A stretch of 47,040 nucleotides of DNA, taken from a virus. Position 1 is the first letter of the stretch; every line of letters starts with the position of its first letter. Positions 22,817 through 25,822 of the stretch are shown here, one piece after another. The DNA lies in the IMG/VR virus record IMGVR_UViG_3300030906_000027, positions 1 through 47,040 of that record; one strand, 5' to 3'. A program made the position numbers and the translations under genes. The notes under the pieces were generated by a model. It was given only the letters and a program-made list of their open reading frames with translations. It did not search any database and was not told the origin of the DNA.

Positions 22817-23203
22817 TCAAACAGTGGCGAGTTGCTCAATCAGGTCGGCGTCCGGGTCGCTTGTCGCTACCTCAACTTTATAGACATCGCCAAACTGTCG
22901 CAGCGGGCTTTCAACTATGGTCCAGCTGCGCTCGGCGTTCGCCAGACGCAGTTCCGCATCGCTCAACATCGCACCACGGTTGATCAGCAGGATAGAGCGG
23001 GCGACGCGCTTTCGGTACGTGAGGAAGCCTTCGGCTGCGAGCATTTCGACGTATCGCTGAACCCGCTTTGTCGCGATCCCCGCGAGTTGAGCGATTTCGT
23101 CGTGGCTCGGCGGATATCCCTTGTCTCGGAAAAGTTGGCGGATCGCGGCGAGCACCCGCTGTCTCGTCGACGCGCCGTTTATGACAATGGCGGCATTAAT
23201 CAC
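22817..23203 (-). CDS. Winged-helix regulator (LexA N-terminal-like)
   Basis: This 128-residue protein has a LexA-like winged helix in residues 12-60: RQRVLAAIRQLFRDKGYPPS, then the recognition part EIAQLAGIATKRVQRYVEML and the wing FLTYRKRV. It lacks the S24 peptidase half of LexA; the second half (from about residue 75) is unrelated and acidic at the end. It may regulate late or middle genes of the minus operon. The start ATG at 23203 is the first in frame. Confidence 0.7.
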   Translation of the reverse strand: MINAAIVINGASTRQRVLAAIRQLFRDKGYPPSHDEIAQLAGIATKRVQRYVEMLAAEGFLTYRKRVARSILLINRGAMLSDAELRLANAERSWTIVESPLRQFGDVYKVEVATSDPDADLIEQLATV

Positions 23204-24439: not shown

Positions 24440-24659
24440 GATGGCTCCTCCGTTCGGTGTCACGATCGATTAGTTGGTAGATTGCAATCGAGCCCCGACC
24501 TCGGCCGGCGTCCACGCGTTTGGCGCGGCCGGCCTTTATGAGTTGCGCCATAGTGCGCGCTACGCTTCCCCCGTGATCGCAAGTTATCTCCGCCAGACGG
24601 GCGTTCGTAAGCGGTCCGTTCATCCGCAGCGCGACAATAAGATCCTTCGGCCCGCTCAT
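24426..24659 (-). CDS. Small winged-helix DNA-binding protein
   Basis: This 77-residue protein has a winged-helix pattern: KDLIVALRMNGPLTNARLAEIT, then VARTMAQLIKAGRAKRV and a Gly/Arg-rich wing (DAGRGRGSIAIYQL). It sits between the DUF1376 replication gene and the BtpA-like gene and overlaps both. It is probably a local regulator or replication accessory. The basic end (DTERRSHRETR) suits DNA contact. Confidence 0.62.
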   Translation of the reverse strand: MSGPKDLIVALRMNGPLTNARLAEITCDHGGSVARTMAQLIKAGRAKRVDAGRGRGSIAIYQLIDRDTERRSHRETR

Positions 24660-25822
24660 CTCTGCACTTCGACACGCGTCAGCCGCCGATCGAGAAAGCG
24701 ATGAGTGAGTTGCTCGAGACGGAAGAGGTACGACTCGGCGATCTGGCGCTCCTGAACACCACTCGACACGCCGATTGTCAGCCCTTCATCGCCGATCGCC
24801 AGCGCCGCGCTATCGAGCAGGTTGCGATATGGGCCCGCGCCGATCGTCGAGGCCGCAGCTGCCCGCCATGCTGCGATCGCCGGAGCCTCGCCCGCCTTCT
24901 CGAACACCAACGGCGCGGCCGGCGCGTTGGATGACGCCGTCGCGGCTTTTGCTGCCGCCTTCGCCCTGGATCCGAATAATTCGCGCTCGATCCATTTCAA
25001 CGATCCGATCGTATCGTCCATCGGCAGCGCCTGTAGCGTCCGAGTGACCGCCGGCAGGATATCGCGCTCGAGATCGTGACCGCGGTCCAGCCAACCCCTC
25101 AGCCGGCTCAGCTCGTCGGCATAGCGTTTCCGGGATGGGTCCATCGGCAGTCCGGCCGCTTCGCAAACCCGGGCTAGCTGCCGATGCAGCGCCCCGCCGA
25201 TCTCGTCCGGCTCAACAACCGGCAAAATCTCGCGCGCATCGACGTCGATTATATTCCCTGTCCCTGTCCCTGTCTCTCTCTCTATCTCTTGGAGCGCTTG
25301 TCCCGGGGGACTTTGACCGCTTGTCCCTAGGGACATTAGTGCCGTGTCCTCGGGGACAGGCGCATATCGAGCGGCCAGGAATTCTTCGAGCGTCGGCGCG
25401 GCGATAGCGGTGCCGTGCCGCTGGTTGTATTTCTTCACGCGGGCGCATTCGGTCCGCCACCGCTGCTCGACCTTCGCCCGCCACGCCTCCCGCACCTGTT
25501 CGGCCACGACTGGATGATAAAGGCGGCCGTCGCGACAGGTGACGAACCCGCGCAGTGCGGCGGTGCGATGTCGCTTCCATGTGCGATGATCGCGACCGAG
25601 CCCGACCAGGCGCATCAACACGGTGTCGTTGTCGGGCAGGCTTCCCGCTGGCAGCTGGTGCCACGACGCCGCCCACAAAAGCACGGCGTACCAGCACGCC
25701 TCCGGATCGCCTTCGGCCGCGAGGTCGCTATCGCGCAGCCGCGAGACATGCAGCGGCATGAACGGAAAGTCCTGCAGATCACTATCGGCCGGCGTCAGCG
25801 GCGCGGGCAACATTTCACTCAA
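24656..25822 (-). CDS. DUF1376 (YdaU-like) replication protein containing the iteron cluster
   Basis: This 388-residue protein starts with the DUF1376/YdaU domain (about residues 15-115; pattern FMPLHVSRLRDSDLA, ACWYAVLLWAASW), found in phage replication initiators. Residues 150-185 form a low-complexity Ser/Gly/Thr/Pro linker, and the C-terminal half is a separate helical domain ending in FLDRRLTRVEVQ. The DNA of the linker contains three palindromic 14-base repeats exactly 23 bases apart, beside a pyrimidine tract. The layout resembles lambda gene O, where the origin lies inside the initiator gene. It probably starts phage DNA replication; no primase or helicase of standard type was seen nearby. 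Confidence 0.78.
   Translation of the reverse strand: MSEMLPAPLTPADSDLQDFPFMPLHVSRLRDSDLAAEGDPEACWYAVLLWAASWHQLPAGSLPDNDTVLMRLVGLGRDHRTWKRHRTAALRGFVTCRDGRLYHPVVAEQVREAWRAKVEQRWRTECARVKKYNQRHGTAIAAPTLEEFLAARYAPVPEDTALMSLGTSGQSPPGQALQEIERETGTGTGNIIDVDAREILPVVEPDEIGGALHRQLARVCEAAGLPMDPSRKRYADELSRLRGWLDRGHDLERDILPAVTRTLQALPMDDTIGSLKWIERELFGSRAKAAAKAATASSNAPAAPLVFEKAGEAPAIAAWRAAAASTIGAGPYRNLLDSAALAIGDEGLTIGVSSGVQERQIAESYLFRLEQLTHRFLDRRLTRVEVQR
25254..25290. repeat. Pyrimidine tract with TCCCTG repeats beside the iterons
   Basis: The plus strand has three perfect TCCCTG units (25255-25272) followed by TCTC repeats and AT-containing ends. It lies nine bases from the iterons inside the replication gene. 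It may be a melting or binding element of the origin. Confidence 0.45.
25299..25358. repeat. Three 14-base palindromic iterons, 23 bases apart
   Basis: The units are TGTCCCGGGGGACT (25299), TGTCCCTAGGGACA (25322) and TGTCCTCGGGGACA (25345); the middle one is a perfect palindrome. Start-to-start spacing is 23 bases both times. Since 23 is not a multiple of three, each unit is read in a different frame, so the repeat is selected as DNA and not as protein. A replication origin or an operator is the likely role. Confidence 0.8.

Follow-up and report, generated by a model that had tools for sequence, protein, structure and literature searches.

The DUF1376 Gene and Its Product

The window, that is, the whole stretch of DNA analyzed here, is a single IMG/VR virus record of 47,040 bases that is possibly a fragment. 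On its minus strand (24656–25822) lies a gene for a protein of 388 amino acids, read from a TTG start codon at 25822, with an ATG at 25813 as a possible alternative start. The protein belongs to the DUF1376 family, scoring 38.4 bits against PF07120 (E 1.6e-9) relative to a curated cut-off of 30.1, and it also matches phrog_22470, which bears the label "replication protein" (E 5e-39). Another gene of the window, at 22817–23203, encodes a LexA-like winged-helix protein with a weak match to phrog_345 (replication initiation O-like, E 0.0099).

In the AlphaFold2 model of the DUF1376 protein, a confident N-terminal domain (residues 1–152) includes both the DUF1376 domain itself (residues 20–110, minus strand 25493–25765, pLDDT ~96), which is predicted to be winged-helix-like, and a long basic helix (residues 104–136). 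When the N-terminal domain was searched against PDB folds, the best match was the N-domain of the staphylococcal plasmid initiator RepA (4pta; E 0.13, probability 0.82, TM 0.33–0.41), a likeness that is suggestive and not significant by E-value, and the weak fold matches also included MarR-family regulators. A linker predicted to be disordered (residues 158–205, minus strand 25208–25351, pLDDT ~40–45) is flanked by two confident domains, the second of which is a C-terminal helical domain (residues 207–299, minus strand 24926–25204, pLDDT mostly >90). The C-terminal domain varies between relatives and is exchanged between phages, and it is our candidate for the helicase-recruiting part of the protein. 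The C-terminal tail, which by eye resembled a helicase-binding module of the DnaA-domain-I kind, was rejected as such based on the lack of support from Pfam or the PDB and its low model confidence.

A Palindrome Array in the Linker-Coding DNA

The DNA that codes for the linker holds most of a palindrome array, together with a purine tract and an AT-rich patch. Three palindromes of the type TGTCCC-NN-GGGACA begin at 25299, 25322 and 25345 within the minus-strand gene with an exact period of 23 bp, as had been described in a sequence-only reading of this DNA, which noted 14-base palindromes every 23 bases. Numbered along the coding strand, iteron 1 (25345–25358, minus strand, TGTCCCCGAGGACA) comes first and is the closest to the 5' end of the gene, iteron 2 (25322–25335, minus strand, TGTCCCTAGGGACA) is a perfect palindrome and iteron 3 (25299–25312, minus strand) reads AGTCCCCCGGGACA; viewed on the plus strand, 25299–25312 is TGTCCCGGGGGACT and 25345–25358 is TGTCCTCGGGGACA, each with one mismatch. 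No further palindrome copies with up to one mismatch were found anywhere in the 47 kb record.

The same reading had taken the repeat to exist at the level of the DNA, and this was borne out by two results. The palindromes start in three different reading frames of the coding strand (2, 1 and 0), and among 3000 synonymous-codon shuffles of the gene none contained three palindromes and only five contained two. In addition, a motif-free search for three palindromic 14-mers at 23 bp spacing picked out this single triple in the window, and 300 shuffles yielded none.

On the coding strand the iterons are followed by AAGAGATAGAGAGAGAGACAGGGACAGGGACAGGGA and then by AATATAAT. The former is the purine tract (25254–25291, minus strand), with (GGGACA)n at its end. 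Within it, at 25255–25274, is the pyrimidine tract with three TCCCTG units that had previously been pointed out beside the palindromes, and which reads as AGAGATAGAGAGAGAGACAGGGACAGGGACAGGGA on the coding strand. The latter (25248–25255) is part of the AT-rich patch (25245–25257, minus strand, GAATATAATCGA), which lies directly after the tract, is one of two AT-rich spots within the gene and is a candidate unwinding element. The general layout of the locus is a DNA-binding domain, a long basic helix, palindromes with a phase of ~11 bp, an AGGGAC purine tract and an AT-rich patch.

Recurrence in Related Genes

This layout is shared by more than 100 related genes. Among the outcomes that the sequence-only reading had named as telling against it were related genes with no repeats and repeats explained by codon use, and the opposite was observed in both cases: most viral relatives retrieved by protein had a palindrome at the matching place with a spacing of 22 or 23 bp, and 76 nonredundant genes contained 153 palindromes compared with 17 in synonymous shuffles. 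The palindromes of these 76 genes were distributed over all frames (60, 32 and 61), and their spacings were mostly 23 and 22 bp, followed by 34 and 45 bp, all of which are multiples of ~11.3 bp. At 75 nonredundant loci, 150 palindromes fell within the gene (83 kb), compared with none in the 616 kb of flanks.

IMG/VR contigs were also scanned by DNA only, using no protein information, for two perfect palindromes 23 bp apart. This identified 55 contigs, some of them near-identical, in 51 of which the motif was inside a DUF1376-family gene; when the gap was freed to 0–30 bases, 71 stretches were found, 55 with a period of 23 and eight with a period of 22. A motif-blind test looked for 14-mers that resemble each other and are palindromic at a distance of 22 or 23 bp, with purine tracts masked and synonymous shuffles as the null. 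It gave p ≤ 0.01 for 56 of 91 genes, the 91 including some that have only the C-terminus in common. The same threshold was reached by 26 of 80 additional genes from bacterial genomes, which were mainly from Sphingomonadales and Burkholderiales, with others from Pseudomonas, Lysobacter and Rhizobiales. The repeats were ambiguous in several divergent relatives, and the array was absent from some, such as L055 and L046, where a C-terminal region that by eye is HNH nuclease-like directly follows the DUF1376 domain and there are neither iterons nor a tract.

The few cases of the DNA-only scan that fell outside DUF1376 genes were either next to AAA_25/PriCT-2 replication genes or in stretches rich in GGGACA. 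Pairs of GGGACA palindromes in stretches of the latter kind, outside DUF1376 genes, were seen at L105:6000–6036, L086:13766 and L109:598 and in L118 and L127; with L118 left out, the genes tested at these sites had no Pfam match. TGTCCC/GGGACA pairs 25 to 43 bp apart adjoin replication genes of another kind at L112:1876, L121:2101, L122:8221 and L126:3581, the neighbors being an AAA_25 helicase and, in L121 and L122, also PriCT-2 (L126 was outside the gene test). Judging from these sequences, an unrelated AAA_25-type replication module may use the same half-site.

Palindromes of other types occupy the same position in other relatives, namely TGTCAC-NN-GTGACA, TTCC-NNN-GGAA at spacings of 21 and 22, and ATGCAT, and the palindrome of phi297 is TGTCAC-N-GTGACA. 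The phase of these alternative palindromes is similar to that of the TGTCCC type. The linker DNA of E. coli K-12 ydaU (L132:10120–10977) contains three perfect palindromes of the TGTTCAAACA type at spacings of 33 and 23 bp, a number of perfect copies that was reached by one of 2000 synonymous shuffles; they are followed by AAAGATACAGATAAAGATC, with an AGATAC-like purine tract. The ydaU palindrome site is a candidate for oriJ, the known origin of the Rac prophage. Several homologues of YdaU (L200, L203 and L206–L212) have an insertion of ~115 residues near or just past the linker, and L305, with a YdaU-like N-domain, has a TTCAACG-NN-CGTTGAA palindrome and an AGATAC tract. Comparison of L301–L325 with L129 revealed phi297-type C-termini joined to other N-terminal DNA-binding domains, the breakpoint being at or after the tract.

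A Purine Tract Common to Different Iteron Types

The tract motif GGGA[C/G]AGGGA was found after residue 117 in 111 of 142 relatives, compared with 14.9 expected from synonymous shuffles. By iteron type, it was present in 70 of 80 genes of the C-type, in all of the A-type (11), phi297-type (6) and ATGCAT-type (3) genes, and in four of nine of the TTCC-type. Since the tract is constant across iteron types, the element that recognizes the iterons is unlikely to read it, and its likeness for every iteron type implies that it probably serves a shared step and not initiator recognition. A G-quadruplex was considered as that shared function and rejected as not general, because no more than 71 of 126 tracts contain four GGG runs and that of the window contains three. 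The tract mostly uses two frames, which give rise to GQGQ or GTGT linkers, and the low-complexity linker "ERETGTGTG" of the window is a by-product of the purine tract in the DNA. The 18 nt past the tract were 62% AT in 126 relatives, compared with 48% in synonymous shuffles and 36% gene-wide, an enrichment (Wilcoxon p 6e-22, n = 126) that concerns composition only.

Co-Variation of the Iterons with a Helix of the Encoded Protein

Palindrome type tracks residues 113–139 of the protein (minus strand 25406–25486), which are the second half of the long basic helix and the residues right after it, and tracks neither the DUF1376 domain nor the sequence beyond the tract. At equal identity of the domain, identity over residues 113–139 was 63–81% for genes that share an iteron type and 33–55% for genes whose types differ, and the association held at every level of DUF1376-domain identity. 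Among 94 typed genes, the domain-corrected residual helix identity was 0.298 higher for same-type pairs (permutation p 0.0005, the permutation of labels being blind to finer relatedness among the typed genes), and there was no same-type excess for the 60 residues beyond the tract (−0.001, p 0.57).

The residues that discriminate the TGTCCC-type from the TGTCAC-type are 119, 128, 131 and 134. For example, L041 (TGTCCC) and L028 (TGTCAC) have DUF1376 domains that are 94% identical, and going from the former to the latter the helix differs by K131Q and D134V, with further differences in the residues right after it. Genes of the ATGCAT-type retain the DUF1376 domain, and their helix is a different one. 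As the helix and the iterons are neighbors on the DNA, joint recombination accounts for part of the co-variation; linkage alone was rejected as its cause because the other side of the tract has no such association. Based on these sequence comparisons, we consider residues 113–139 to be a candidate DNA-recognition element.

Interpretation as a Probable Replication Origin

Both in named phages and on a circular phage-plasmid record of 43 kb, the gene comes after cro and cII-like regulators and has RusA, a DnaB-like helicase or a DnaC loader nearby, a position that corresponds to that of O in lambda. There were no matches to the DnaB_C and DnaC/IstB profiles in the window record, so for this virus the recruitment of a helicase is an assumption. 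GC skew had no clear turning point at the array and was uninformative as an origin marker.

We consider it very probable that the array is the replication origin of the phage, situated inside the gene of its own initiator, the DUF1376 protein. The array, the fixed order of its elements, their helical phase, the AT-rich patch and the helix–iteron co-variation all fit a lambda-like origin within a gene, and the AT-rich patch, the conserved tract and the co-variation lend support to the sequence-only reading, which had likened the layout in this DUF1376 gene to the lambda origin within gene O. We infer that the DUF1376 protein would dimerize and bind the palindromes by means of its N-terminal winged-helix domain together with basic helix 104–136. 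Given that the spacings are in multiples of ~11 bp, the dimers would be on one face of the DNA and could stack into a single complex, which would strain and open the AT-rich patch on the far side of the purine tract. The (AGGGAC)n repeat itself would probably function in a step such as single-strand capture or helicase loading, and the C-terminal domain would recruit the replicative helicase of the host, either directly or via a loader that in some phages is encoded nearby. The coding sequence would tolerate such an origin because it sits in the disordered linker.

Several other explanations of the array were weighed against this one. It is unlikely that the palindromes are operators from which the DUF1376 protein or another regulator represses the replication operon, with no origin being present. 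Palindromes do suit a dimeric winged-helix regulator, of which the weak MarR-family fold matches are reminiscent, but the array is ~465 bp into the gene, with no palindromes at the promoter or elsewhere in the 616 kb of flanks, and operators leave it unexplained why a conserved purine tract and an AT-rich patch come in a fixed order. Still less probable is that the site serves the swapping of gene modules, partition or packaging instead of being an origin. C-terminal modules swap near here, the repeated tract could act as a hinge for recombination and phi297 carries a ParA-like protein. However, partition and packaging sites are usually near their own genes, recombination may be a side effect, and none of these functions explains why iteron type tracks a helix of the encoded protein.

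We attach very little probability to an RNA element, in which hairpins in the mRNA would act in attenuation, frameshifting or translational control, as although the palindromes are able to pair in RNA, the predicted folding was unexceptional (z −1.55, with 15 of 200 shuffles equal), there was no match in Rfam, and each gene has a single half-site sequence, as for a DNA-binding protein, in a phase of ~11 bp. Lastly, the idea that the repeats are generated by codon bias in a repetitive linker (GTGTGT, GQGQGQ) can in effect be dismissed, as it was refuted by the shuffles. The low complexity of the linker is real, as are the simple peptide repeats that the tract encodes, but the palindromes occupy three frames at a spacing that is not a multiple of three, the palindromes and the tract are in large excess over synonymous shuffles, and one and the same DNA tract gives GQGQ or GTGT depending on the frame.

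With regard to the family as a whole, the balance tips slightly toward DUF1376 proteins being a large, unrecognized class of phage initiators whose origins are modular and can be swapped. In such a class the helix after the domain would set iteron specificity and change together with the iterons, while the near-universal (AGGGAC)n tract and AT-rich patch, which would not depend on the specificity of the initiator, would be the common opening or loading element, and YdaU and oriJ of Rac would be included.

Relationship to Known Systems and Implications

Origins inside genes are known in other phages, and the 2006 review by Weigel and Seitz is reportedly the key one on phage replication modules. 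In the open literature on DUF1376, no title or abstract treats origins; an earlier mention is possible in the subscription reviews, which were outside the scope of the search. A search of the open literature for oriJ returned nothing relevant.

The locus resembles the origin in gene O of lambda and Stx phages in that its iterons lie midway along the initiator gene, are palindromic and recur at intervals of about two helical turns, with an AT-rich region alongside, and in that the initiator gene is located after cro and cII (PMC7466680). It differs in that the iterons are of 14 bp (TGTCCC-NN-GGGACA) rather than of the 18 bp ATCCCTCAAAACGAGGGA type, in the GGGACA hexamer tract between the iterons and the AT-rich patch and, with respect to the O–P module of lambda, in that no helicase or DnaC-type gene adjoins it in the window record. 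The only Pfam match of the protein was to DUF1376, and there was no lambda O among the 50 PDB fold matches listed. The organization is like that of ori-lambda (PMC7466680), but the initiator has no detected homology to lambda O. A parallel by family is YdaU of the E. coli K-12 Rac prophage (neighbor YdaV), which shares the Pfam family DUF1376 and has palindromes in its linker DNA, although its iteron and tract sequences are not the same. In terms of fold, the best-scoring but not significant PDB matches to the predicted winged-helix N-domain are the staphylococcal RepA_N initiators (4pta, E 0.13; 5kbj). The iterons of RepA_N plasmids are also located within the rep gene; however, these plasmids are from Gram-positive bacteria, and the DUF1376 protein had no sequence match to the RepA_N family.

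The occurrence of simple repeats such as GTGTGT and GQGQGQ in a protein linker can be the shadow of a signal in the DNA, and such linkers should be interpreted with caution. The constancy of the hexamer tract raises the question of how origins of this kind open or load a helicase, and the co-variation supplies natural pairs of initiator and iteron variants from which it may be learned how a winged-helix initiator reads DNA. Our analysis offers a candidate function for DUF1376, a widespread family whose role had been unknown, and a prediction of the site at which many temperate phages of Alpha-, Beta- and Gammaproteobacteria would begin replication.
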